This document shows, one piece after another, positions 21,900 to 43,309 of a stretch of DNA of 46,682 bases (position 1 is its first letter; every line of letters begins with the position of its first letter). The position numbers and the translations under genes were made by a program. The stretch lies in NCBI GenBank assembly GCA_013349405.1, contig DUZS01000030.1:1-46682 (forward strand). Direction: 5' to 3'. This DNA is from Desulfuromonadales bacterium. GTDB lineage: Bacteria > Desulfobacterota > Desulfuromonadia > Geobacterales > Pseudopelobacteraceae. Below the pieces are notes generated by a model. The model searched no databases and was not told where the DNA came from. It was given only the letters and a program-made list of their open reading frames with translations.

Positions 21900-24800
21900 A
21901 TGAAACCAAGCAGTAGCATCACATCCAGGCCCGGCATTCGTTCCCTGCTCCGCCTGACGGCATTCGTGTTTGTCATGGCGTTTGCCTGCCAGGCTTTTGC
22001 AGCCTCGCCGGATGTCGTCATCAGCCAGGTCTATGGCGGTGGCGGTAATACCGGCGCCACCTATAAAAACGATTTTATCGAGCTGCATAATAACGGTGCC
22101 AGCGCGGTCAGCCTTAACGGCTGGTCGGTGCAGTATGCTTCTGCAACCGGCACATCCTGGGCGGTTACACCACTCACCAATGTCACGCTGCAACCGGGAC
22201 AATATTACCTGATACAGGAGGCTGCCGGTGCATCTACCACGGCGATAAATCTGCCGACACCGGACGCAACCGGCACCATCGCCATGAGCGGCACTGCCGG
22301 TAAAGTTGCCCTGGTTACCAGCACAACAGCACTTACCTGTGGTGCAACATGTGCAACCAATGCCGCTGTCCGCGATTATGTCGGCTTCGGCACAACAGCC
22401 AATAATTTTGAAGGCACCGGCCCGACGCCAGCGCCAAGCAATACTACCGCAGTGCTGCGCGCCGGTAATGGCTGCAGCGATACCGATAATAATAACGTCG
22501 ACTTTGCAGCAGGAGCGCCAACCCCGCGTAACAGCGCTACGGCACTGAATGCCTGCACCGTTATCGTCGTTAACGGCGCCTGCGGCGGCGACAACGGCCT
22601 GACTCTTGCTGCAGTAGCACCGACCGGCCTCTGCGGTGCCGGTACCGCTTCGGCCATCACCGGCAGCGGCCATCCCTGGGGTTGGAGCTGTGTCGGAACT
22701 GGTGGTGGCACTACCGCAAGCTGTTCAGCCGCCATCCAGAGCTACACGCTCAACTTTGCCAGCGACGCCAACGGCACACTCAGCGGCACAACTCCACAGA
22801 GTGTTGATTACGGCGCTTCTGCTTCCGCCGTAACCGCCAGTGCCAATGGCGGCTATCTCTTCCAGAACTGGACCGGCACGGGCGGCTTTGCTACCTCGAC
22901 TGCCAACCCGCTGACTGTCGCTAACGTCACCGCCAGCCAGAACATCACCGCCACCTTCATCTTGGCCTCGGCGCCGGTCAACGGCGCGTGCGGCAGTGCC
23001 AACGGGGTAAGTTCTCTGTCCGTACCGACCGCCAACTTCTGCTCCGCCGGAACCGCCTCTGCAGTGACCGGCAGCGGCCCCTGGAACTGGAGCTGCACCG
23101 GCAGCAACGGCGGCAGCAGTGCCGGCTGTACAGCACCCAAAGCATTAGCTATCAGCATCTTCCACGTCAACGACACCCATGCCCGTCTGACACCGCACAA
23201 AATGGCGGCTCCGATGCATGGCACGACCAATGCCACATTTGAAGATGTGGGTGGCGCGGCCCACATGGCTGGCAAAATGCTCGAGCTGACCGCCGCCAAT
23301 CCCGATTCGCTGGTGATCGACGCCGGTGACATTTCCGAGGGGAGCCCCATCGGTGACTTCAGCGCCACCAACCCGATCACCATCCCCGGCTTCAGCATTT
23401 CAGGTTGTGCGCCACTCAGTCCCGGTGCCCTCAGCAGCAACTGCGGCATGACCCAGTTCTACCAGCTTCTCTCCCAGAAACTGCAGAACCAGCGGGGACG
23501 TGGCATGGACGCCGTCGTTGTCGGCAACCATGATGTCCGCGACGCCAGCTACATCACCAATCTTGAAAACCTGCAGGCATCCGGCGTTCCGGTCATCTCG
23601 GTCAACGTGCGCAACATGGATGGGACACCGCACTTCAAGCCCTATACCATTACAACCGTGGCAGGAAAAAGAGTCGGCATTCTCGGTTACACAACGCAAG
23701 CCGCCGAAGTCGGCGCCTCGCTGGCCACCACCCTTCAGGTGGTGGATTGTGACTGGAGTGCGGCAACAAATACTCTCTCACCAACTACAACAACATGCCA
23801 CCTGAAGTCATATGTCGACGAACTGCGCACCAACCCGAAAGACGCTCTGGGCAATCCGGTCGCCCCGGTAGATCTGGTCGTGCTGGCGGCTCATATCGGC
23901 CACAGCGGCATGGTCGACCCCAATCCCAAAGTTTCCCCGAAACTACTAGTTGACGACGGTGTCACCAAACTGCCGGAAGTCTCCGTCAACGGCCACTGGC
24001 ACACCTGGGCCGAAACCCCGGCCTGGCAGCCTGCTGAGCTCAATTACAAGACCACCATCACCGAGTCCGGCAGCTACCTGACCTACATCGGTGAATTGAA
24101 GATTGACGCCGCCGGCAAATTTCTCAGCGGGTATAACCACCTGCTGCGCACCGCCGACATCACTCCCGACCCGCAGGTGCAGAGCTTCGTCAATCAACTC
24201 GTCACCCAATTTGATGCCGCTGCCGTCGCACAAAACAAACCGAAGGCCTTTGAAGTGGTCGGATACACCAACGACAATCTGCTGCTGGATAATGAAATGC
24301 GCTGGTGGTCCCCCAACGAGTACCCCTGGGCCGGCAACAATCCGGCCGGACAGTGGATCTGCGACGCCATGCAGTGGAAGGCCGCCCAGCTGTTCGGCTC
24401 CTGCGATCTGGCCATCGAGACCGGCGGCGGTGTGCGCGCCGATATCCCGGCCGGCCCGGTTACCTACCTCCAGGTTTACGAGACCTTCCCCTGGAGCGAC
24501 GATACCTACGTCCGGATCAACATGACCGGCCAGGATATCCTTAACTTCCTCAAGAATACCAACATGAACGCCGGCTTTTCCCGCAGGCTGCACGTGACCA
24601 GCGTGGACGGCGTGCCGACGTCAATCCTGTTTGACGGTGCACCCCTCAACATGAGCCAGACCTACACCGTTGCCATAAATAACTATATGTTCGCCCATCC
24701 GCCAGCAGGCTACACCTGGCCGGCCAGCAGTTCACCGCTCACTAACGGTGCCCTGGTTCGCGACAGTCTGGTGGAATTCATGCAGGCCAATCATGCCACC

Positions 24801-27398
24801 CTGGCTGCTGCCTACAGCGTCGGCGGCCCGAGATATGACGTGAACACCGAGTTTGCCGGCGGTTTCCGCGCCGTTGTCACCATGATGAACGATAACGATA
24901 CCCGCCCGACCTTCGATAACGCCTTTGTCCGCCTGCTCAGCGCCAACCCCGAGACCCTGGCCCGACGCGGCCAGGGGAAGGTCCCGACCGATCTGGTCAC
25001 TGTAGATGGCAGCATCAACCCGGCTCATCATCTCGCCGAAGCGGAATGGTTCCGCAGCTATCTCGGTTTTAAAACCGGCGCCCTGAAAAATGGTGACATT
25101 GTGGAAATCTGGGGCAAGGGGAGCTTCTTTGACGGCAACCCGGAATTTGTCGAGCAGGAGGGGATTTACAGCCAGGGAGCAGAATTCAGGATTCTCGGCA
25201 ACGACCCGAGCCTGGCTAAACCGGCCTTCAAATCCTCGATCAGCGAGTTCTGGAATGATCAGAATAAAAACCACTACGTGCAGTTCCTGGCAAAGAAGAC
25301 CGGCGCCAGCACGGTGCAGGATCAGAACGGCCAGACGGTCACCATCAGCGACCGCACCGCCTATACCAGCTTCGCCCTCCCCGGTGCGGTCAACGACATA
25401 CTGCTGATCACCGGTATCCCGACCATGAAGAATTTCGGACTGGTCTTCCGTGGTGACACCGCTTCCGTCGCACCCGGCGGCAGCCTGCCGGCTGCAACGT
25501 CGATTAATTCCAGCGTCAACCCGACCCCGGCCGGCACCGATGCCGCCTCGGTCACCTTGACGGCTACCGCATCCACCTCCACCGGTTCCTACTTCCTGGC
25601 TCCGGTGGCCGATGCGCAGGTGGCGAGTGGTAATCCGGCTACCAACTACGGCGTCTGTGTCGGCACCAGCAAAACCTGCAACAACATCTATATCCAAAGC
25701 AGCAGCACAAGCTTCGGCAACGAGCGGGGCTGGCTGAAGTTCGATCTTTCCTCCATCCCGACCGGATCAATCATCAACAGCGCCACCCTGCAGCTCTGGA
25801 ACTGGAAATCCGCCGGCGCTTCACTGCCGGTCGAGGTGCGCAGTGCAGCGGTTGACACCTGGACCGAGTCGGGCATCACCTGGAACAGTCAGCCTGTTCC
25901 CGGCGCTGTTCTCGACACCGTGACACTTGCAGCCGGGGCCATCAACAACTGGTACAGCTGGAACGTAACCCCATTTGTTCAGGGCGAGTTCGCCGGTGAC
26001 AAGACGGTTTCCCTCATGCTGAAGCCGGTTACCGAGGGCTCGACTGACGCCACCGCGCCAAGCTACGCCTTCGACGCCAGGGAGTATGGCAGCAATGCAC
26101 CGCTGCTGTTGGTATCCACCGGCACGACGGCGGCCACCATCACCCAGGTGCAGTACTTCTACCGCTACTCCGCCAACAATACTACCTGGGGCACTTGGTC
26201 TCCTGCCGGAACGGCGACCTTTGCTCCCTACACCCTTTCATTTGCGTTCCCGAACGGTGAAGGGTATTACGAATTCTACAGCATCGCCACCGACAGCACC
26301 GGTGCGGTAACAGCAGCTCCCTCCGCCGCCCAGGCTGCGACACATTACAGCGCGACTCCGGCCTATTTCCCGATGGTCTCCATCGATAACCTCTACCAGA
26401 AGTACGACGGCTCGGCCAAAGCGGTAACCGCCATCACCATCCCGACCGCCGCCGCTGCTTCCGCCACCGTGACCTACAACGGCAGTTCCACGGCACCGAC
26501 CGCACCCGGCGTCTACACCGTGGTTGCCAACGCCACCTCCGGCAGCAACACCGGCACTGTCAACGGATTTCTGGTCATCGGCAAGGGAACCCCAACCATT
26601 GCAACAGTGCCAACCGCTTCCGCCATCACCCATGGTCAGTCTCTGGCATCATCCGTCCTGACCGGCGGCGCCGCTTCCGTTGCCGGCACCTTCGCTTTCA
26701 CATCGCCCGCTACGGTTCCTGCCGTTGGCACCGCAAACCAAAGCGTTACCTTCACCCCGTCTGACACGACCTTGTACAGCACGGTCAGCGGAACGGTCAG
26801 TGTGACCGTCACTCCGGCTGCTCCAGCCGTATCAAACTGGCCGACCGCTTCTGCAATCACCTACGGCCAGTCACTGGCAGCATCAACCCTGACCGGCGGT
26901 GTCGCATCCGTTCCCGGTACGTTCACCTTTACGACGTCAGCTGCTGTCCCCGGCGTCGGAACCGCAACTCAGGGTGTAACCTTCACCCCGACTGATGCCG
27001 TCAACTTCAGTACGGTCTCCACAACGGTCACCGTGACGGTCTACCAGGCGGGCCAGAGCATCGCCTTTCCGGTCATCACCGCCACACAACTGGGCAGCGG
27101 TCCGGTGACGCTGGTCGCCACTGCCGATTCCGGCCTGCCGGTGTCGTATACCTCCCTGACGGTCGGAGTTTGCACAGTAAGTGGTGCCACGCTCAATCTG
27201 CTGGCCACCGGAACCTGCACCATCGTCGCCGACCAGATTGGCGACGTCAGCTACACCGCCGCTCCACCCGTTGCACAGAGCTTCACCATCACCGCTGCGA
27301 CCACTGCAGCACCGGTACCCGCCCTCGGGCCGTGGGGAATCCTGATAGCCGTAGCCGGTCTTGGCGGCATCATGTTCCGCAAACGCACGGCCTGTTAA
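21900..27398 (+). CDS. Giant multidomain secreted 5'-nucleotidase with lamin-tail, DNRLRE and IPTL-CTERM-type tail
   Basis: The 1832-aa protein has a signal peptide (AFAA at about 37) and, in order: lamin-tail domain (about 38-215), Cys-paired repeats starting NGACGG (about 222-280, 360-412), an InlB-type WTG repeat (about 283-355), and a UshA-like 5'-nucleotidase (about 416-1010) with HVNDTHARL (D425, H427), DAGD, GNHD (542-545), AHIGHSG, NGHWH and GGGVRADIP. A further enzyme-associated region follows (about 1015-1190), then a DNRLRE-like domain (about 1230-1405) and MBG/Ig-like repeats (about 1490-1720). The tail VPALGPWG, hydrophobic helix, RKR matches the IPTL-CTERM signal class linked to exosortase H. 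Function: probably surface-bound nucleotide or polyphosphate-ester hydrolysis. Confidence 0.92.
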   Translation: MKPSSSITSRPGIRSLLRLTAFVFVMAFACQAFAASPDVVISQVYGGGGNTGATYKNDFIELHNNGASAVSLNGWSVQYASATGTSWAVTPLTNVTLQPGQYYLIQEAAGASTTAINLPTPDATGTIAMSGTAGKVALVTSTTALTCGATCATNAAVRDYVGFGTTANNFEGTGPTPAPSNTTAVLRAGNGCSDTDNNNVDFAAGAPTPRNSATALNACTVIVVNGACGGDNGLTLAAVAPTGLCGAGTASAITGSGHPWGWSCVGTGGGTTASCSAAIQSYTLNFASDANGTLSGTTPQSVDYGASASAVTASANGGYLFQNWTGTGGFATSTANPLTVANVTASQNITATFILASAPVNGACGSANGVSSLSVPTANFCSAGTASAVTGSGPWNWSCTGSNGGSSAGCTAPKALAISIFHVNDTHARLTPHKMAAPMHGTTNATFEDVGGAAHMAGKMLELTAANPDSLVIDAGDISEGSPIGDFSATNPITIPGFSISGCAPLSPGALSSNCGMTQFYQLLSQKLQNQRGRGMDAVVVGNHDVRDASYITNLENLQASGVPVISVNVRNMDGTPHFKPYTITTVAGKRVGILGYTTQAAEVGASLATTLQVVDCDWSAATNTLSPTTTTCHLKSYVDELRTNPKDALGNPVAPVDLVVLAAHIGHSGMVDPNPKVSPKLLVDDGVTKLPEVSVNGHWHTWAETPAWQPAELNYKTTITESGSYLTYIGELKIDAAGKFLSGYNHLLRTADITPDPQVQSFVNQLVTQFDAAAVAQNKPKAFEVVGYTNDNLLLDNEMRWWSPNEYPWAGNNPAGQWICDAMQWKAAQLFGSCDLAIETGGGVRADIPAGPVTYLQVYETFPWSDDTYVRINMTGQDILNFLKNTNMNAGFSRRLHVTSVDGVPTSILFDGAPLNMSQTYTVAINNYMFAHPPAGYTWPASSSPLTNGALVRDSLVEFMQANHATLAAAYSVGGPRYDVNTEFAGGFRAVVTMMNDNDTRPTFDNAFVRLLSANPETLARRGQGKVPTDLVTVDGSINPAHHLAEAEWFRSYLGFKTGALKNGDIVEIWGKGSFFDGNPEFVEQEGIYSQGAEFRILGNDPSLAKPAFKSSISEFWNDQNKNHYVQFLAKKTGASTVQDQNGQTVTISDRTAYTSFALPGAVNDILLITGIPTMKNFGLVFRGDTASVAPGGSLPAATSINSSVNPTPAGTDAASVTLTATASTSTGSYFLAPVADAQVASGNPATNYGVCVGTSKTCNNIYIQSSSTSFGNERGWLKFDLSSIPTGSIINSATLQLWNWKSAGASLPVEVRSAAVDTWTESGITWNSQPVPGAVLDTVTLAAGAINNWYSWNVTPFVQGEFAGDKTVSLMLKPVTEGSTDATAPSYAFDAREYGSNAPLLLVSTGTTAATITQVQYFYRYSANNTTWGTWSPAGTATFAPYTLSFAFPNGEGYYEFYSIATDSTGAVTAAPSAAQAATHYSATPAYFPMVSIDNLYQKYDGSAKAVTAITIPTAAAASATVTYNGSSTAPTAPGVYTVVANATSGSNTGTVNGFLVIGKGTPTIATVPTASAITHGQSLASSVLTGGAASVAGTFAFTSPATVPAVGTANQSVTFTPSDTTLYSTVSGTVSVTVTPAAPAVSNWPTASAITYGQSLAASTLTGGVASVPGTFTFTTSAAVPGVGTATQGVTFTPTDAVNFSTVSTTVTVTVYQAGQSIAFPVITATQLGSGPVTLVATADSGLPVSYTSLTVGVCTVSGATLNLLATGTCTIVADQIGDVSYTAAPPVAQSFTITAATTAAPVPALGPWGILIAVAGLGGIMFRKRTAC

Positions 27399-29569: not shown

Positions 29570-32500
29570 CTACCAGTTAAAAAGACCGATTGATTTTTGC
29601 AAAACAGCCACGGCATCAGCGATGTCGATAATGCCGTCCGGGGTTGATGTGCCGTTCACAAAAGGAGCAACATCGCCGCTGGCCAGTTCGGCAGGAGTCG
29701 CTTTTTTCAGGCCGATGGCAAACTGCAGTGCCAGCAGGGCATCAGCAACATTCACGGTGCCATCGCCGTTCAAATCGCCCTTGACAGCCGGTATGGCAAT
29801 AAATGTCGCGCTGACGGTGCAGTTGCCCAGAATTCCGGCGGTGGAAAAGCTGCTGCCGCTTATTTTCCCGCCACAGCCGCTGACGCTTGAGATCTGGTAG
29901 CCGCTGTCAGGGGTAATGGTAAAGACAGCGGTTTTACCGGCTTCGACCCCCTGGTTGACCGACGGACTGATGCTGCCATGCGGGCCGCTGACCGGGGCAA
30001 CGGTGAATTGAATCGGCGGAAGCGGGGCAAAGTTGGCCGTTATGGTTTGTGCTGCCGTTACATTTGATAGCGTCAGCGGATTGCTACTGCTGATGAAGCT
30101 GGCGCCGTCGCTCCAGTTGACAAAATAATAGCCGCTGGCCGGAACCGCCGTCACGGCTGATGCCGATGCGCCGTAATTGACCGTCTGGCTGGCGGCACCG
30201 GTCAGGGTGCCGTTACTGCCGCTAACGAAGCTGAGCGTGTAGGTATCGATGGCAAAGTTGGCAGTGATGTTCTGCGCTGCCGTGACGTTGGCGACCGTCA
30301 GCGGGTTGCTGCTGCTGGTGAGGAAACCACCCGTTCCGGTCCAGTTGACGAAGTGGTAGCCGGTGTTGGGCATTGCGCTGACGGCGGTTGCCGATGCGCC
30401 GTAGTTGACGTTCTGACTGGCAGTTCCGGAGACCGATCCGTTTATCCCGCTGCTGAAAGTTACCGTTACGGTATCAAGGGCAAAGTTGGCGGTAATGGTT
30501 TGTGCCGTAGTGACGTTGAGGAGTGTCAGCGGGTTGGCGATGGTCGTCACAAACCCTCCGCCACCGGTCCAGTTGACAAAGTGATAATGAGCTGCCGGAA
30601 CAGCAGTTACGGGTGATGCCGCCGCGCCGTAGCTGACATTCTGACTGGCGCTGCCGGTCAGCGAACCGTTGCCGCCGTTGATGAAGGTGACCGGCAGGGC
30701 ATCGATAGCAAAGTTGGCGGTTATGGTTTGTGCCGCCGTGACGTTTGACACTGTCAGCGGGTTGGCGATGGTCGTCACAAAGCCCCCGGTGCCGGTCCAG
30801 TTGACAAAGTGAAAGTTAGCTGCCGGGACAGCAGTCAATTCAGTTGTAGTTGCGCCATAGTTGATGGTCTGGCTGGTGGTGCCGGTCAGGCTGCCGTTGC
30901 CGCCGCTGGCGAAGGTAAGTGCAAAAGTTTTGATACTGAAGGTGGCATTGACCGAACAATCGGCGGTTACCGGGGCGGTGCTGTAGCTGGTGCCGGTAAG
31001 CGTTCCGCCGCAGCCGCTGACGGTGGCGATGTTGTAGCCGGTGTCAGGTTTAATCGTGATTGTCGCGCTGGCGCCATCGGAAACCGGCTGGGTTGCCGGG
31101 GCTACAGCGCCATTGATTCCGGCGCTGGCGGTTACGGTATGGTTTGTCTGGCTGAAGTTGGCGATGACGGTGCAGTGTGCCGTAATTGGATTGGTGTTGT
31201 AGGTCGTGCCGACCAGTGACCCGCCGCAGGTGCCGCTGACGCTGGCGCTGTAGCTGCCGGTCGGGGTAACCGTAAAAGATGCAGTGCCGTTGTAATTGAC
31301 GCTTTGGGCGGTCAGCGGGGTAATGCTGCCGTTGCCCGCACCGATGCCGATGCTGGGTGTGACGGTGAAGCTGTCAATCGCAAAGTTAGCGGTAATGGAT
31401 TGATCGGCGCTTACCGTGGTCACCGTCAGCGGGTTGGTGGCTGTGGTGACAAAGCCGCCGGTGCCGGTCCAGTTGACAAAATGATAGCCGATGTTTGGAA
31501 CAGCGGTGACGGCTGTTGCCGCAGCCCCGTAATTAACCGTCTGTGCCGTGGGGCCGTTGAGCGTGCCATTAGCGCCGGCGGCAAAAGTAAGGGCATAGCT
31601 GGTGATGGCGAAATTGGCGGTGATGCTCTGGTTGGCGGTTACGCCTGTTACCGTCAGTGGATTGGCGGTCGTGGTAACGAAGCCGCCAGTACCGGTCCAG
31701 TTGACGAAGTGATAGCCGGTGGCGGGAACAGCGGTGACGACTGTTGCTGAGGCGCCATAATTGACCGTTTGGCTGGCTGTGCCGGTCAGGGTGCCGTTGG
31801 CGTCGCTGGTGAAGGTGACGGTGAAGGTATCGATAGCAAAGTTGGCGGTGATCGTCTGTGCGGCGGTCACGTTGCTGACGGTCAGCGTGCTGTTTGTGCT
31901 AATAACAGTAGCGCCGCTGCCGGTCCAGTTGACGAAGTGATAGCCGATTGCCGGCACGGCAGTTACAGCGGTCGCCGCAGCGCCGGAGTTGACCGTCTGG
32001 CTGGCGCTGCCGGTAATGGTGCCGTTGCCGCCGGGGATAAAGTCGACCGTGTACGTTGTGACGGCGGGTGCTAGTGCAAACGTAGCACTCACAGTACAGT
32101 CTGCGGTGACGGGGCCGGTGGTGTAGGTGTGGCTGGTAACGGTAGAAACGGTGTTGGTATAGGCCGTGCCATTGCAGCCGGTAATTGAGGCAACGTAATA
32201 GCCGGTATTGGCATCGAAGGTAAAGCTGGAGGTGGCGTTCAATGCCACAGTCTGCGGTGTCGTGCCTGTAGTCAGGCTGCCGTTGGCTCCGGCGCTGGCA
32301 GTGACGGTGTAGGTTGGGTTGATGGTGGTAGAGCCGTCGGCGTTGGTGGTTAGATCAAGAATTTTTACGCCGGTATATTGTGCTGCCATATTACCGGGAC
32401 CAAACGACCAGACAGTCATGGCTACTGGTTTAGTCATCAGGTCGATAAGGGAAAGATTGGCACTTGATGACAATAAGCCTGTGTATCCACTGTAGCCACC

Positions 32501-33016
32501 TAGTGTTGTACTTCCGAAGGTAGAACCGAAGGAACTGGCGTTGGTATTGTTTGCAATCACCGTTGAAGTGCTGCCGGTGGCCGTAGCCAGGGTGCTGTAG
32601 TATTTGTTCACGCTGACTGGTTGCGGCGGCCCATTTAATGAGGTTATAGATAATTTGTTCTGAATCGCTGGCAATCCAGCAGTAACTGGAGCTGTTGGTG
32701 TGTCAATTCCGATGTACATGGTGCCATTGAGGGAATTGGTCCTGTTGACGGCATAGTAGTTAACTGACAGGTTACTGAGCGGGCTGGAACCGATAAAATT
32801 GGTAAAGGCGTCCCCCGCGTCCCCTTTTTTGGTATTAGTCACTCCTGCGAGCACGGTGATGTCACCCAGATCGGTAGCTATCTCCAGTGTAGAACCGGCG
32901 GTAGCGTCGGATATTACGCGGATCAGATGAACGTTCTCGAAGGCGGCAAAGGCGCTCCCGGCCAGGCTGAAGGAGAGCGCCAGTGCGGCGATGAGGGTGA
33001 CAGATTTCTTGAACAT
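29570..33016 (-). CDS. Large surface protein: N-terminal module, eleven InlB-type/Cys-pair repeats and C-terminal dockerin
   Basis: The 1148-aa protein has a signal peptide (AFAA), an N-terminal module (about 25-240) shared with the PEP-CTERM proteins at 42527-43309 and 27752-28378, then eleven repeats of ~75 residues. Seven are of the type N-Y-G-A...G-Y-H-F-V-N-W-T-G...T-A-N-F; four (repeats 1, 5, 6 and 11) have a Cys pair instead (S-G-C-G-G...C-T-V-S-A-T-F). The last ~70 residues are a type I dockerin: GDLNGDGTVNVADALLAL as first calcium loop, PDGIIDIADAVAVLQ as second. It has no sorting tail. Surface attachment through cohesin-dockerin contact is therefore likely. Its start is 323 bp from the divergent exosortase-cohesin gene. 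The Cys-pair repeats would need disulfide formation. Confidence 0.9.
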   Translation of the reverse strand: MFKKSVTLIAALALSFSLAGSAFAAFENVHLIRVISDATAGSTLEIATDLGDITVLAGVTNTKKGDAGDAFTNFIGSSPLSNLSVNYYAVNRTNSLNGTMYIGIDTPTAPVTAGLPAIQNKLSITSLNGPPQPVSVNKYYSTLATATGSTSTVIANNTNASSFGSTFGSTTLGGYSGYTGLLSSSANLSLIDLMTKPVAMTVWSFGPGNMAAQYTGVKILDLTTNADGSTTINPTYTVTASAGANGSLTTGTTPQTVALNATSSFTFDANTGYYVASITGCNGTAYTNTVSTVTSHTYTTGPVTADCTVSATFALAPAVTTYTVDFIPGGNGTITGSASQTVNSGAAATAVTAVPAIGYHFVNWTGSGATVISTNSTLTVSNVTAAQTITANFAIDTFTVTFTSDANGTLTGTASQTVNYGASATVVTAVPATGYHFVNWTGTGGFVTTTANPLTVTGVTANQSITANFAITSYALTFAAGANGTLNGPTAQTVNYGAAATAVTAVPNIGYHFVNWTGTGGFVTTATNPLTVTTVSADQSITANFAIDSFTVTPSIGIGAGNGSITPLTAQSVNYNGTASFTVTPTGSYSASVSGTCGGSLVGTTYNTNPITAHCTVIANFSQTNHTVTASAGINGAVAPATQPVSDGASATITIKPDTGYNIATVSGCGGTLTGTSYSTAPVTADCSVNATFSIKTFALTFASGGNGSLTGTTSQTINYGATTTELTAVPAANFHFVNWTGTGGFVTTIANPLTVSNVTAAQTITANFAIDALPVTFINGGNGSLTGSASQNVSYGAAASPVTAVPAAHYHFVNWTGGGGFVTTIANPLTLLNVTTAQTITANFALDTVTVTFSSGINGSVSGTASQNVNYGASATAVSAMPNTGYHFVNWTGTGGFLTSSSNPLTVANVTAAQNITANFAIDTYTLSFVSGSNGTLTGAASQTVNYGASASAVTAVPASGYYFVNWSDGASFISSSNPLTLSNVTAAQTITANFAPLPPIQFTVAPVSGPHGSISPSVNQGVEAGKTAVFTITPDSGYQISSVSGCGGKISGSSFSTAGILGNCTVSATFIAIPAVKGDLNGDGTVNVADALLALQFAIGLKKATPAELASGDVAPFVNGTSTPDGIIDIADAVAVLQKSIGLFNW

Positions 33017-33071
33017 AGTGACGATTCTCCTGCTATAGAGTGTATGGAGCTGATCTGAAATCCAGGCTGCG

Positions 33072-33134
33072 ACTATAACATGCTATTATTACAGTCGTGC
33101 TGAAGTAAGGTAACGATTATAAAACAATTTCGGT
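33072..33134 (-). promoter_or_regulatory. Conserved upstream element of the dockerin protein gene
   Basis: On the minus strand TGTAATA (33087-33093) lies 9 nt before TATAGT (33072-33077), and more than 60 bp match the element upstream of the VPLPA-CTERM gene (16184-16248). It is 56 bp from the start codon. Confidence 0.6.
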
Positions 33135-33141
33135 GTGGTGG

Positions 33142-33230
33142 GTAGGGGCGCGGTCCGTGACCCGCCCTTGGAGCAATATGCACCATGTTTGCCATTTGCG
33201 CCGAGGGCGGGTTTGGAACCCGCCCCTACG
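33142..33230. repeat. REP-like composite repeat, family A (single copy)
   Basis: Bounded by GTAGGGGCGCGG and CCCGCCCCTACG with two hairpins (GGTCCGTGACC; GGGTTTGGAACCC) and a central TGCACCATGTTTGCCATTTG segment. This is the same unit that is tandemly repeated at 45304-45855, in the opposite orientation. It lies between the dockerin and exosortase genes. Confidence 0.85.
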
Positions 33231-33326
33231 TTTAAATTCGGTACATCGGTAATTTTACGTCTCGATGTAGCATACCTTCACCGAAGATGTTGCTGAATCG
33301 TAACACCACGCAGCTCACTCCTGATA

Positions 33327-33340
33327 TATAATCCCCGGTA
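33327..33340 (+). promoter_or_regulatory. Extended -10 promoter placing the transcript start at the exosortase ATG
   Basis: TATAAT at 33327-33332, preceded by TGATA, is 7 nt from the ATG at 33340. There is no Shine-Dalgarno sequence, so the mRNA is probably leaderless. A GTAACA box is at 33300-33305. Confidence 0.5.
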
Positions 33341-35325
33341 TGCATCCCCACCAGACGGACATACTGTTACCTGACACAGCAGCACCCACTGCCTCTCCAC
33401 CCTGGCTCCGCTTTGCGCTGCTCTGCACTCTGTTTCTGCTCGCTTCAATCTGGCTGGAAACACATCTTCTGCCACTCAACGGCGTTATTGCGGGGCTGAG
33501 CGCACAGCTGCTGGCCCTGTGCGGGTATACGCCGCTGGTGGCGGGTGACCTGATAACCGTGGCCGGATTCAGCGTACGGATCGTACTAGAGTGCACCGCG
33601 ATACACCCGATCCTGATCTACGTTGCTTTCGTGCTGGCTCATCCCGGTTCATTGCGACGAACTCTTACCGGTCTGGCGGCGGGGAGTACGCTGCTCTTTT
33701 CGGTCAACATTGCGCGCATTGCGCTGGTCACGCTGGTCGGTGCCCGCTGGCCACTCTTTTTTGAACTGCTCCACGTCTATCTGGGGCAGGTCGTCATGCT
33801 GCTGCTGGTGCTGGCTGCGGCCCTGGCCTGGCAGCGCTGCGGCAGTGAAGGGGTGAGCCCGCTGCCGTTTGTCCTTCGGGCCCTGCTCTGGGCCAGCATG
33901 CTGTTTCTTCCCTGGGTGGTGCTCAATAAATACTTCTATATGAATGCTGTCGATGCGCTGGTGTTCCGGGTTATTGCGGCGCTCTCATCTCATACGGATT
34001 TTTCGATCGAGCGCCCGGTGGCACTCTATAACCATACCTTCGCACTCCCGTTGTACCTGGCGATGGTACTGGCTGTCGGCGGCTCTCCCGTTGCCCGACG
34101 CTTGAAATACACCCTTGCGGGCAGCCTGATCATTGTCGGCTGGCATATCATCTTCCGGATTTTTCAGGTTTCTATGGAAATATTTAAGCTGAACGAGTTG
34201 CAACCACTGTATCTGAGCATCTACCTGGGTGGTCAGTTTCTTGTTCCGCTGCTGCTCTGGGTCTGCTGGTTCGGGCCGCCTCGACGCAGTGAGTCGCTAG
34301 CGTCCGGTGGCGTCTGTGGGGGTGTTTCAGCGGCACTCCTGGTCTGCACCCTGCTCTGGCCGGGCGAAGCGCGGGCGGAAGCGCGGTTGATTATGAAGCA
34401 GACCGGCAGTAACGTCTATCAGTTGGAGATGAAAGGGTTGGAGCGGATAACCCGCGTGACCATTGCCCTGGAGTACGTACTGCAGGGGGCGGCCTCCGAA
34501 CCGAGCCTGCTTCCTTCTGGGCTGGGGTTTATCGGGTCACTTAAAATTGAATCTTCGCATGCAAGCGGCGACGCCAACAGTATGACGATTGTCTACGATG
34601 CTGCCCGCCCGCACAGCGGTGATGGCATGTTGGGGACTCTCACCCTTACCCGTAGAGGAGGAGCGGGGGTAATGATCGGTGGCATGCGGGCTGCAGTGGA
34701 AATGCAGAATTATAAAGGGGTGACCATTGCAGCTGCCAGCGAGGTTGAGGATGCTGCTCCTGGTACTGCGGAGGTTGTGAAAGATGACGGAGCGAACGCC
34801 GCTGTCATCGGAAAAGCCTCAAGCGCGGGTATCCCGATGGTTACTCCTGCCGCTGCAAAAACTGGCGCCGATGTCACGCGCCGTTCTCTTAAAGGTGTCT
34901 TGGTACAGTTTCTCGAATCTGCCGGAGAACGAACGACCGAAGTTTTGGCCGACCTGGTTGCACGCAGAGGTGAGGGGGGAGACTATCGCCAAGAACCGTC
35001 GCTACTGCTCAGCGATGGCGTCACTCCACTCAGAGTGCTATTTCACCAGGCGGCCAGTTCCTTCAAAGAAACCCCCAGCTTTGTCATCAAGGGAGCTGAA
35101 TTCGGCACGTTTACATGGCTGCCATCGGGAGAGCTGGCAGTTGACGTGCTGCCCGATAAAGGTGCCCTCAGGGCGAGTATCACGATTATCACCAAGGAAG
35201 AACAGGTGGAATATCCGCTGGCGATTGCTCCACCGTTGGAACAGTTTGATGCAAGCAGGGCAGGGGCGGGTGAAGCGGAATATGTGGCGGCGGCGAACCG
35301 GTTGGTGAGAGGGAACGTGCCGTAG
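33340..35325 (+). CDS. Exosortase (XrtH-like) fused to a second membrane domain and a cohesin-like periplasmic domain
   Basis: The 661-aa protein opens with an exosortase/archaeosortase domain (about 20-165) with the active-site triad: Cys in LECTAIHP (C85), Arg in NIAR (R126) and His in LLHVYLGQ (H145). Its short size fits exosortase H, whose substrate class (IPTL-CTERM) is represented by the giant nucleotidase at 21900-27398. A second multi-helix domain (about 180-312) resembles exosortase-associated membrane proteins. A further membrane segment (about 325-345, cleavable-looking ARAEA) leads to a cohesin-like domain (about 347-465): N-V-Y-Q-L-E-M-K-G, V-T-I-A-L-E-Y, M-T-I-V-Y-D-A, S-G-D-G-M-L-G-T-L-T-L. 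The C-terminal ~190 residues are unassigned. The stop codon lies inside a REP-like element. The fusion may couple sorting to dockerin binding. Confidence 0.82.
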   Translation: MHPHQTDILLPDTAAPTASPPWLRFALLCTLFLLASIWLETHLLPLNGVIAGLSAQLLALCGYTPLVAGDLITVAGFSVRIVLECTAIHPILIYVAFVLAHPGSLRRTLTGLAAGSTLLFSVNIARIALVTLVGARWPLFFELLHVYLGQVVMLLLVLAAALAWQRCGSEGVSPLPFVLRALLWASMLFLPWVVLNKYFYMNAVDALVFRVIAALSSHTDFSIERPVALYNHTFALPLYLAMVLAVGGSPVARRLKYTLAGSLIIVGWHIIFRIFQVSMEIFKLNELQPLYLSIYLGGQFLVPLLLWVCWFGPPRRSESLASGGVCGGVSAALLVCTLLWPGEARAEARLIMKQTGSNVYQLEMKGLERITRVTIALEYVLQGAASEPSLLPSGLGFIGSLKIESSHASGDANSMTIVYDAARPHSGDGMLGTLTLTRRGGAGVMIGGMRAAVEMQNYKGVTIAAASEVEDAAPGTAEVVKDDGANAAVIGKASSAGIPMVTPAAAKTGADVTRRSLKGVLVQFLESAGERTTEVLADLVARRGEGGDYRQEPSLLLSDGVTPLRVLFHQAASSFKETPSFVIKGAEFGTFTWLPSGELAVDVLPDKGALRASITIITKEEQVEYPLAIAPPLEQFDASRAGAGEAEYVAAANRLVRGNVP

Positions 35326-40943: not shown

Positions 40944-42407
40944 TTACGGAGCTATTGGAGCAGTTGCAGTCGTTTTTGAAGGATACGCAGGATCTGAACC
41001 GCGGACGAAGTTCATTTCATTGACGGTGGCCCAGAACGCTGCTTTGCCGCTCGGAACATTGGCCGGGGTCTGAACATACGCGACAACGGCGTTAGCAAGC
41101 GCTGAAGCATCAGTATACATATGACCGACTGTGTAGAACTCGTAGGCGCCATTGCGGACGTTGGTACGGTTAGCGGATACACCGTTGTAGGTGAGCTTGT
41201 TGTACAGCGGAGCAGTTGTAGCAGAGTTACCATTGTCGGCATCCATGTAGCCGATTGCTCCGGTAGCCGGAATAGCAGCGCCGGTTGGCGAAACGAACGT
41301 TGTATCAGTTCCGCCGATGCAAGCTTTCATGTCGGTCGTGGAACCGGCAAAGTTGGTGTACGGCAGGACATTGGCCAGATCGTTATTTGCGAAGGTAGTG
41401 TAGTCAGCGCCCCAACCGGTTTTGCCGGCAGCTCTCATGACAGTTACGTCAAAGCCGACGTGTGTCCCGGAACCTGGTTTACGCATGCAGAGTTTGACCG
41501 GGTTGCTGGTGAAGTAGCTACCCAGCTTGTTCCAGTTGAGGATTGTGCCGGAATAGAGGATGTTGGCCTGCAGGCGGCTGATGTTGGTGATGGTGCTGGG
41601 GGTTGTTTCGCAGGTGTCACCAGAGAGGCACTGCTCCGTGTTGGAAGATGTGCAGTAGCCGCCGGTGTGCTTGCCGAGCGAGTTGATGCAGTGAGTCGCA
41701 GTTACGCCGGGGTTAACGTAGAAGGCAAACGGTACGGCCACGGTTTTGTTGTCATTACCGGGATTCGTGAATGTCGGCAATACGGTGTAGGTATTGAGGC
41801 CGGTGGCGGATATAAGCTCATCTGAGGCGAACTGGGTGAACTGATCGAAGGCAACATCAGATGTGCCAATTTGGACCGGTTTACATACCGTTGCAGCCAC
41901 ATAGGCAGCCTGAGCAGCGGGGACCGGGTTACCGGCAGCGTCAACGCCATCAGCAAGTGTAGGACTGGATGCTAAACCGGCAGGAGCAACGAGACGCTCT
42001 TTATTGGTGACAGTACAGCCGGTTGTGAACTCTGGGTCAAGGGCGGTAGCACCGGTCCGGGTAGTAATGCCTTCGCCGGAACCGAAACCGTTATACCGGA
42101 AGGTCAGGAAATTGTCGGTAGAGCCCGGAATTGCTGGCTTAGAAGAAGCGGTGCCACAGTTTGTGCCAGTGACGACGCCGTTCTTGATGGTGTTGCCCAT
42201 GGCGGTTTTGTACTGGATCACGTTGCCATTGCCGGTGGCAAGAGCAGGGACGGTTGTTGTGCAATACTGCTGCACAAACTTGACGGCATTGGCGTTCAGA
42301 AAGTCGAACTGGGCGGAAGCGCCATAGATGTTGATTTCTGCAGCTCCGGCCAGCGAGGCGACGGAGAGGCCGGCAACGGCCATTACGGATACGATCTGCT
42401 TTTTCAT
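40944..42407 (-). CDS. Secreted PstS-like substrate-binding protein, Cys-rich
   Basis: The 487-aa protein has a signal peptide (AGAA) then INIYGASAQFDFLNANAVKF, which resembles the start of PBP-like phosphate-binding domains. RKPGSGTHVGFDVTVM fits the anion-binding S-G-T loop of PstS-like proteins, and T-S-D-V-A-F-D-Q corresponds to a second ligand loop. It has at least nine Cys (for example C-I-N-S...Y-C-T-S-S-N-T-E-Q-C-L-S-G-D-T-C), unusual for PstS. No transporter genes are adjacent, so it may act as an extracellular binder rather than a classical uptake component. Ligand unknown, phosphate plausible. AAGGAG lies before the start. Confidence 0.8.
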   Translation of the reverse strand: MKKQIVSVMAVAGLSVASLAGAAEINIYGASAQFDFLNANAVKFVQQYCTTTVPALATGNGNVIQYKTAMGNTIKNGVVTGTNCGTASSKPAIPGSTDNFLTFRYNGFGSGEGITTRTGATALDPEFTTGCTVTNKERLVAPAGLASSPTLADGVDAAGNPVPAAQAAYVAATVCKPVQIGTSDVAFDQFTQFASDELISATGLNTYTVLPTFTNPGNDNKTVAVPFAFYVNPGVTATHCINSLGKHTGGYCTSSNTEQCLSGDTCETTPSTITNISRLQANILYSGTILNWNKLGSYFTSNPVKLCMRKPGSGTHVGFDVTVMRAAGKTGWGADYTTFANNDLANVLPYTNFAGSTTDMKACIGGTDTTFVSPTGAAIPATGAIGYMDADNGNSATTAPLYNKLTYNGVSANRTNVRNGAYEFYTVGHMYTDASALANAVVAYVQTPANVPSGKAAFWATVNEMNFVRGSDPAYPSKTTATAPIAP

Positions 42408-42526: not shown

Positions 42527-43309
42527 TTACGCATTCATCTTGCGACGGAGGCCAAACAGTCCCATCAGGCCGGATCCAAGCAGCCAGGCGGCAGCCGGTA
42601 TCGGTGTTGCAGCCGTGGCAACTGCGTTAATGGTGGTGGAACCGTCGGCGTTGGTTGTCAGGTCAAGCACCTTTACGCCGGTATATGCTAAACCCATGTT
42701 GCCAGGGCCGTATGACCAGATGGTAGTGGCAACTGAAGCTGTTGCCAGGTTGGCCAGGGACTGAACGGCGTCAGATGAATTCAATCCGGTGTATCCTGCA
42801 TAACTGCCAAGGGTTGTGGAACCGTTCGTGCCCGACAGGGAGGCTGCATTTGTGCTGTTGGCCACTACAGTAGAAGCCGTTGGATTGATACTGTTGTAAT
42901 ACTTGTTGACACTGGCGGTTGTTGAAGTGATTGCATATTTGTTTTGGATTGCAGCGAGACCAGCAGTGCTGGTAGATGTTACAACGGAATCAAGGCCGAT
43001 CCACATTTGTCCGGCAAGGGCGGACGTTCTATTGACGGCAAAGTACTGAACCGACAGGTTGCTGAGCGATGCGGTACCGATGTAATTGGTGAAGGCGTCA
43101 GCAACTCCTCCGCCGACGATGGTGTTAGGGGCCAGTGAAGCGAGTGTGGTGATGCTGCCGAGGTCGGTAGCGATTTCCAGTGTTGAACCGGTGGTCTTGT
43201 CGGTGATGACGCGGATCAGGTCCATGTTGGCGAAGTTGGCGGCGAAGGCGCTGCCGGCGGAGAGGGTCATCATAGCTGCTGCGATGAGCATAATCATTTT
43301 CTTTTTCAT
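42527..43309 (-). CDS. PEP-CTERM-type exported protein, paralogue of the dockerin protein N-terminus
   Basis: The 260-aa protein has a signal peptide (AFAA), a ~205-residue module and a sorting tail TPIPAAAWLLGSGLMG ending RRKMNA. The module (LIRVITDKTTGSTLEIATDLG, V-Q-Y-F-A-V-N-R, T-T-I-W-S-Y-G-P-G-N-M, V-L-D-L-T-T-N-A-D-G-S-T-T-I-N) is closely similar to residues 25-235 of the dockerin protein at 29570-33016; the two diverge directly after NADGSTTIN. AAGGAG precedes the start. A GEMM-I aptamer and an attenuator lie in its leader. Confidence 0.88.
   Translation of the reverse strand: MKKKMIMLIAAAMMTLSAGSAFAANFANMDLIRVITDKTTGSTLEIATDLGSITTLASLAPNTIVGGGVADAFTNYIGTASLSNLSVQYFAVNRTSALAGQMWIGLDSVVTSTSTAGLAAIQNKYAITSTTASVNKYYNSINPTASTVVANSTNAASLSGTNGSTTLGSYAGYTGLNSSDAVQSLANLATASVATTIWSYGPGNMGLAYTGVKVLDLTTNADGSTTINAVATAATPIPAAAWLLGSGLMGLFGLRRKMNA

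Follow-up and report, generated by a model that had tools for sequence, protein, structure and literature searches.

Exosortase H Fused to a Protein of Predicted Cohesin Fold, Encoded Divergently from a Dockerin-Ended Protein

Fusions of the exosortase EpsH with EpsI have been described (in a passage of PMC1569441), and the cohesin and dockerin proteins that sulfate reducers carry are viewed as adhesins in a section of PMC10553843 from which exosortases are absent. The passages found that bear on exosortases and dockerins record the two in archaea but no fusion like the one presented here. Searches of the literature for PEP-CTERM together with cohesin and for exosortase together with IPTL-CTERM returned nothing. 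Cohesin and dockerin folds also occur outside cellulosomes, as in 2xdh from Archaeoglobus fulgidus. A 2009 review by Peer is said to concern these non-cellulosomal cohesins and dockerins. In the cytochrome b/c1 precursor FbcH, one chain joins a polytopic membrane protein to a partner that has its own internal signal, and signal peptidase cuts it.

The window analyzed here is a stretch of 46,682 nucleotides from a Desulfuromonadales bacterium, and its features are collected in Table 1. The plus-strand gene at 33340 was confirmed as a real fusion of exosortase H with a cohesin-fold protein, a variant that differs from the EpsH-EpsI and XrtH-only forms. In contrast to the EpsH-EpsI fusions, its C-terminal region has a predicted cohesin fold and is preceded by an internal signal-peptide-like segment, and the EpsI family is not among the matches listed for the window protein at E <= 1. 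The fusion resembles the exosortase H/IPTL-CTERM system in its XrtH domain, which is over the cut-off; an IPTL-like tail elsewhere in the window scores below its cut-off. However, the XrtH model covers 158 residues, and the fusion adds a membrane domain and a cohesin protein. Unlike the non-cellulosomal cohesins, the window cohesin shares its chain with a sorting enzyme. The layout resembles that of FbcH, although the proteins are unrelated and the cutting of the window fusion is putative.

Table 1. Positions of the features of the fusion, the dockerin protein and other genes in the window
Feature	Residues	Position (strand)	Basis or remark
Exosortase H domain	1-175	33340..33864 (+)	NCBIfam TIGR04177, PF09721, triad
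Second membrane domain	176-315	33865..34284 (+)	resembles XrtH-associated membrane protein
Signal-peptide-like hydrophobic segment	318-346	34291..34377 (+)	ends ARA before E
Cohesin-fold domain	347-472	34378..34755 (+)	predicted fold
D domain, conserved	509-635	34864..35244 (+)	present in standalone relatives
C-terminal segment	636-656	35245..35307 (+)	alignment A3
Dockerin	1080-1148	29573..29779 (-)	AlphaFold2, Foldseek, profile A5
InlB B-repeat region of dockerin protein		29804..32311 (-)	PF18998 E 3.5e-91, 9 stretches
N-domain of dockerin protein		32312..32938 (-)	PEP-CTERM-like tail in most relatives of the domain (by eye)
Second N-domain protein		42527..43309 (-)	PEP-CTERM-like tail
PstS-like binding protein		40944..42407 (-)	TIGR02136 E 1e-10, below cut-off
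IPTL-CTERM-like tail VPALGPWG...		27315..27386 (+)	end of 21900-27398 protein

The NCBIfam model TIGR04177 matched the fusion protein at 89.2 bits (cut-off 86), and PF09721 was also matched in the exosortase H domain. An initial sequence-only reading of this DNA had named C85, R126 and H145 as the exosortase triad; these residues are present and are invariant among the eight fusions compared. The second membrane domain of that reading matched NF041730 at an E of 0.0024, below the cut-off of that model. Unfused relatives carry the exosortase and the second membrane domain in the same arrangement. The segment that follows is hydrophobic by the Kyte-Doolittle scale. Directly before the cohesin, all 22 distinct fusions have A or S at -3 and A, S or G at -1, a permissive rule for a signal-peptidase-like pattern, and eight kinds of residue are found at -2. 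This conserved cutting-site pattern at the joint suggests that the two halves of the fusion may be separated after synthesis.

Residues of about 347-465 had been read as cohesin-like, and the predicted structure of the window protein places the domain among the cohesin folds. PF00963 (cut-off 24.1 bits) gave no match to the window fusion protein at E <= 1 in the Pfam search. The same model reaches 24.9 bits for one standalone relative. The cohesin fold and the D domain are together called C-D. When solved structures were searched with a sequence profile, 5nrm_A and 5nrk_A came up at an E of about 0.6, and phmmer against solved structures gave no match for the sequence. In structure comparison, cohesin folds match CBM3 too. 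For the D domain, Pfam yields nothing at E <= 1, and structure comparison barely covered it. The C-terminal segment aligns with the EF-hand-like end of the standalone relatives, the ligands being lost.

The divergent gene (29570-33016, minus strand) encodes a protein of 1148 residues. The dockerin that had been recognized at its end is borne out by the predicted fold (AlphaFold2 pLDDT of 92.5; Foldseek rows 1-25 back a dockerin). Two helix-loop units are predicted, and by eye the first loop is canonical and the second elongated. The local dockerin profile A5, of which the window dockerin is itself a row, matched it at an E of 9.9e-30. PF00404 (dockerin type I, cut-off 22.9) gave 16.2 bits for this dockerin; in another search it gave 20.8, or 24.2 with the neighbours in frame.

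The search of genomes for exosortase-cohesin fusions that had been proposed as a check yielded 22 distinct sequences in related bacteria (21 of 41 database hits are fused proteins, to which locus L114 is added), with identities to the window fusion down to approximately 35%. Three of the 22 are cut at the N-terminus, and a full-length fusion is found in 3 of 277 genomes. The TIGR04177 scores are 102.9 for the L114 fusion, above the cut-off of 86, and 84.1 for the L033 fusion (genome G030), just under it. In most relatives (most genomes of the order) C-D is a free secreted protein. At L119 the exosortase and C-D are separate genes with an overlap of 26 bases as called, which indicates that a covalent tether is unnecessary. 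In a midpoint-rooted tree the unfused forms fall within groups of fused ones; L053 sits on a very long branch there, and the tree does not fix how many times fusion or splitting took place. The 410-residue gene that follows exosortase H at L053 was considered as an unfused C-D and rejected, since it is a relative of L,D-transpeptidases (below cut-offs).

The linkage of C-D to dockerin genes, which the sequence-only reading had set as a check, is supported; the co-occurrence of the two is strong with the local profile but not significant with the Pfam model. Among 141 genomes, 98 have matches to both the local dockerin and C-D profiles, 11 to C-D only, 4 to dockerin only, and 28 to neither (Fisher 1.4e-16, kinship ignored). 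The corresponding counts for 39 genomes of the same genus are 34/1/0/4 (p of 6e-5, kinship ignored). The local profile leans towards a link with C-D because it was built partly from dockerins beside C-D genes. With the Pfam dockerin model, the counts for 58 genomes are 39/14/2/3 (p of 0.14, kinship ignored). The two genomes with a Pfam dockerin and no C-D match are G027 and G043, the latter with a dockerin over the cut-off; in these and in G037, G040 and G045 the local profile missed Pfam dockerins, and 13 genomes show the reverse. The four genomes with local-profile dockerins and no C-D match comprise three that are 66-85% complete and G124, which is 99% complete. Of the listed dockerin matches, out of a total of 215, 14 lie within 10 kb of a C-D match, compared with 2.5 expected, and these are distributed over 10 of the 58 genomes, the window's own included. 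At L139 the protein encoded divergently from C-D ends in a different tail. Pfam cohesins occur in 57 of the 58 genomes, including 8 of the 9 that lack local-profile dockerins, so their presence alone does not track dockerins (the matches of the 57 genomes were inspected in part). Another candidate partner of the dockerin, the cohesin domain that ends a secretin-like protein (L001, E of 6.5e-14; named a secretin by eye), was set aside. In several relatives the C-D gene lies among FtsEX-, EnvC-, protease- and deacetylase-like genes, named by eye.

The domains, their recurrence, the -3/-1 pattern and the linkage of C-D and dockerin genes are computational observations and predictions. The explanation that is tentatively preferred, with a chance slightly short of even, is a precursor that is cut at A346 and whose cohesin protein, freed or tethered, binds dockerin surface proteins. 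The gene would produce one precursor containing exosortase H with its associated membrane domain, an internal signal peptide and the secreted C-D protein. Signal peptidase would cut after A346, and the enzyme and the cohesin protein would thus be made together in the same membrane stretch. The freed (or, if uncut, tethered) C-D protein may then bind surface proteins that end in a dockerin, the divergent 1148-residue protein among them, and keep them at the cell surface. The result would be a co-made pair of exosortase and dockerin receptor, not a sorting enzyme gripping its cargo. The C-D family is thereby a candidate dockerin receptor within a single bacterial order, and its recurrent fusion to a sorting enzyme would connect dockerins with the sorting of surface proteins.

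It is unlikely, though with appreciable weight, that the cohesin fold lacks dockerin binding here and that C-D is an export accessory for exosortase/PEP-CTERM proteins, linked to dockerins by shared lifestyle or descent. In the DNA read at the L114/L143 and L119/L144 loci (two of the four exosortase H plus C-D loci read), dockerin matches are absent, and at L114 and L119 C-D has N-domain PEP-CTERM proteins and a PstS-like protein as neighbors. The Pfam co-occurrence, the 11 of 141 genomes with C-D only, the FtsEX-type neighbors and the match to CBM3 agree with an accessory role. It is opposed by the co-occurrence within the genus and by physical clustering, as at L145, where a single C-D gene is surrounded by four dockerin proteins, and at L048/L062, L063 and L091.

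The sequence-only reading had proposed that the exosortase itself holds dockerin proteins at the export site, with no need for a C-terminal sorting tail. This tethered arrangement is improbable, and the replacement of a PEP-type tail by non-covalent sorting, through capture by an exosortase-coupled cohesin, is quite improbable; the tail-free sorting route is a hypothesis. If such capture takes place, the window's genome would have in the fused copy its sole C-D receptor for some eight dockerin-like proteins. The recurrence of the fusion is in favor of the tethered arrangement, and a dockerin protein is divergent from the fusion both in the window and at L033, there with one further gene between them. 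That intervening gene and the degenerate first Ca loop of the L033 dockerin count against the preferred explanation. Most N-domain relatives end in a PEP-CTERM-like tail (by eye), whereas the window protein has a dockerin. The fusion is also the only C-D gene found in its own genome, beside eight dockerin-like matches to the local profile, by which an early Pfam reading of the window dockerin as the only one in the genome was rejected. The folds, the recurrence and the linkage of that proposal were upheld, but the holding of dockerins by the exosortase is not supported, in view of the -3/-1 pattern in 22 of 22 fusions, the free C-D proteins of most relatives, the separate genes at L119 and the two loci lacking dockerins. 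An assembly or gene-call artefact, as could be suspected from the several named contigs that are metagenome assemblies, is extremely improbable given the number of independent fusion sequences, all in continuous frames.

The second N-domain protein of the window is 64% identical to the first over the N-domain, and its tail matches VPLPA-CTERM at an E of 1.1e-4, below the cut-off. By eye, PstS-like proteins adjoin N-domain genes in relatives. The IPTL-like tail gave an E of 0.0058 and 16.9 bits with TIGR04174, below the cut-off of 20.5; this tail type is the one named for exosortase H in the source name "exosortase H (IPTLxxWG-CTERM-specific)". IPTL-like tails were also seen by eye beside L034 and L067.

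The exosortase triad (C85/R126/H145), the second membrane domain and the cohesin-like segment (about residues 347-465) that the sequence-only reading had assigned to the plus-strand protein were each recovered, the last as a predicted cohesin, and the features are collected in the table. C85, R126 and H145 are unchanged across eight aligned fusions. A low-confidence linker lies between the predicted cohesin and the D domain, and the C-terminal segment corresponds in the alignment to an EF-hand-like stretch that many standalone relatives carry close to their end, with the ligands lost. The dockerin that had been noted at the end of the divergent minus-strand protein was modeled with a pLDDT of 92.5. 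Foldseek rows 1-25 are all dockerin or cohesin-dockerin entries (E 0.004 to 1.4, none under 0.001), and the Pfam score is under the cut-off alone and over it with frame neighbours.

Features of the fusion and of the divergent dockerin protein
Feature	Position	Strand	Remarks
Fusion frame	33340-35325	+	661 residues
Exosortase H domain	residues 1-175 of fusion		89.2 bits vs NCBIfam cut-off of 86
Second membrane domain	residues 176-315 of fusion		weak match to NCBI exosortase H-associated membrane protein, E 0.0024, below cut-off
Hydrophobic segment	residues 318-346 of fusion		ends ARA, E next
Predicted cohesin	residues 347-472 of fusion
D domain (conserved, second)	residues 509-635 of fusion
Dockerin protein	29570-33016	-	signal-like start (by eye), N-domain, InlB B-repeats, dockerin
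InlB B-repeats	within 29570-33016 protein	-	PF18998, E 3.5e-91
Dockerin	residues 1080-1148 of 29570-33016 protein	-

A search for exosortase-cohesin fusions, as that reading had proposed, led to a count of 22 distinct proteins. At E ≤ 1e-10, the profile search of the protein database, in which the 7998 candidates with most words in common were scored, found 41 proteins, of which 21 are fused (577-675 residues) and 20 are not (317-353 residues). The fusion at locus L114 is the twenty-second; database protein P0008 is identical to the fusion at L033. The N-terminus is missing from 3 of the 22. Full-length fusions were found in 3 of 277 whole genomes of the class, namely the window's own, G030 (L033) and G101 (L114). 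The L033 fusion scores slightly under the exosortase H cut-off (84.1) and the L114 fusion over it. At L119 (G067), the exosortase and the secreted cohesin-plus-D protein (C-D) are separate genes, with a 26-base overlap when the first start is taken. A tree of 50 exosortase domains nests unfused rows among the fused: P0034, P0028 and P0040 fall inside one supported group of 14, 11 of them fused, and further fused rows lie elsewhere. P0007 is a standalone C-D protein whose start resembles the first helix of the exosortase, and P0040 is an unfused exosortase H. Their source contigs are both 104852 long; we infer that they share one contig, and the pair looks like a fusion with its middle lost.

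The fusion is tentatively read as a precursor that would give rise to exosortase H together with a secreted cohesin receptor, within a surface system that would combine tail-based and dockerin-based display. FbcH is a precedent for a membrane protein and its secreted partner in one chain. No account of an exosortase-cohesin fusion was found in the open-licence literature searched, and print beyond that may contain one. According to PMC1569441, EpsH-EpsI is a known exosortase with an added C-terminal region, and EpsH-CAAX protease-like fusions are also on record.

Within the order, 109 of 141 genomes had a match to the C-D profile (14 rows, E ≤ 0.001) and 102 had one to a profile of 15 local dockerins (E ≤ 1e-4). 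Both were present in 98, C-D only in 11, dockerin only in 4 (G085, G109, G124 and G126) and neither in 28 (Fisher p 1.4e-16, kinship ignored), a result weakened by the inclusion in the dockerin profile of several dockerins found beside C-D genes. The corresponding counts are 78, 4, 1 and 20 for 103 genomes with completeness of 90% or more and contamination of 5% or less, and 34, 1, 0 and 4 for 39 genomes of the own genus (p 6e-5, kinship ignored), where the four lacking both may reflect a single loss. The Pfam dockerin model (E ≤ 0.01) gives 39, 14, 2 and 3 in a 58-genome set (p 0.14, kinship ignored) and 23, 10, 1 and 3 in its 37 genomes of the own genus (p 0.11, kinship ignored). G043 lacks a C-D match, and its Pfam dockerin passes the cut-off when neighbours are included. 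C-D thus follows the local kind of dockerin, not all dockerins.

The local dockerin profile gave 215 matches in the 58-genome set. Among the matches listed, at least 14 from at least 10 genomes are no more than 10 kb away from a C-D match, with the window and L033 counted, vs 2.5 matches (P 4e-7) and 2.4 genomes (P 2e-4) expected; same-contig pairs were taken by eye, and some clusters look orthologous and are not independent. By profile, three dockerin proteins precede a C-D gene in G005 (L062, L048), as do two in L063 and three in L091; in L145 four surround the C-D gene, their tails 0.1 to 10.4 kb away. In L048, L062, L063, L091 and L092, two to three dockerin-tipped proteins form a recurrent cluster; the C-D gene closes it in L048, L063 and L091, and the L092 contig stops earlier. 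At the fusions themselves, a dockerin protein is nearby in the window and in L033, where a further HipA-like gene (by eye) intervenes and the first calcium loop of the dockerin is degenerate. The exosortase H and C-D pairs of L114/L143 (G101) and L119/L144 (G067) gave no dockerin match in 28.9 and 29.5 kb of DNA; these genomes have 10 and 16 dockerin matches elsewhere. The comparison covers the window, L033, L114/L143 and L119/L144. The two loci weaken the dockerin link at the fusion and favour an accessory role for C-D that does not involve dockerins, which we nevertheless consider rather unlikely.

Immediately ahead of the cohesin, all 22 fusions have Ala or Ser at -3 and Ala, Ser or Gly at -1, with a hydrophobic run upstream, and eight residue kinds occur at -2. 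Since identity among the fusions falls to about 35%, the -3/-1 pattern looks to be kept by selection. It resembles a signal peptidase site, although the rule is permissive, and the cohesin part may therefore be released by cutting. This joint is the chief evidence against the earlier proposal that the exosortase itself holds the cohesin and recruits dockerin proteins while tethered, which is improbable.

If, as in the precursor reading, C-D is a dockerin receptor, the fused copy would serve all eight dockerin-like matches of the own genome, where it is the only C-D gene found. A further, unseen copy is possible because the assembly is 96% complete. In several relatives (L038-L041, L050) a standalone C-D gene lies between protease-like and deacetylase-like genes (named by eye); C-D is absent from the corresponding site of the own genome (L061). 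A secretin-like protein (by eye) of the own genome (L001, G000:C9:30399-30707) has a terminal Pfam cohesin domain (E 6.5e-14), and in many of the 58 relatives the frame that contains the top PF00963 match is about 800-900 residues long.

The N-domain of the dockerin protein was matched in 6 of 58 genomes. Among 20 distinct N-domain proteins from the window and fetched loci, tails assigned by eye are PEP-CTERM-like in 13, dockerin in 2 and another shared tail in 2; 3 are cut by contig ends. Beside fusion-subfamily C-D genes, the long N-domain proteins end in a dockerin in the window and L033, have the other tail in L139 and are cut in L037 and L043. In L138 a dockerin apparently begins before the contig end (by eye), unflagged by the profile. 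The long N-domain protein of G043 (L087) also has the other tail, which in L087 and L139 ends like GxLxVxxGSLxVdrIiI (by eye). A PstS-like protein is close to the N-domain genes in most such loci (by eye); that of the window, the only one scanned, matches TIGR02136 at E 1e-10, below the cut-off. In G023 (L053:4513-7869), an exosortase H-like gene that scores below the exosortase H cut-off has a dockerin-tipped protein immediately upstream and is followed by an L,D-transpeptidase relative. At L054:216-10570 and L055:6310-18001, the neighbours of dockerin-tipped proteins (about 900-1000 residues) are large proteins with many heme-binding-like CxxCH-type motifs (by eye).
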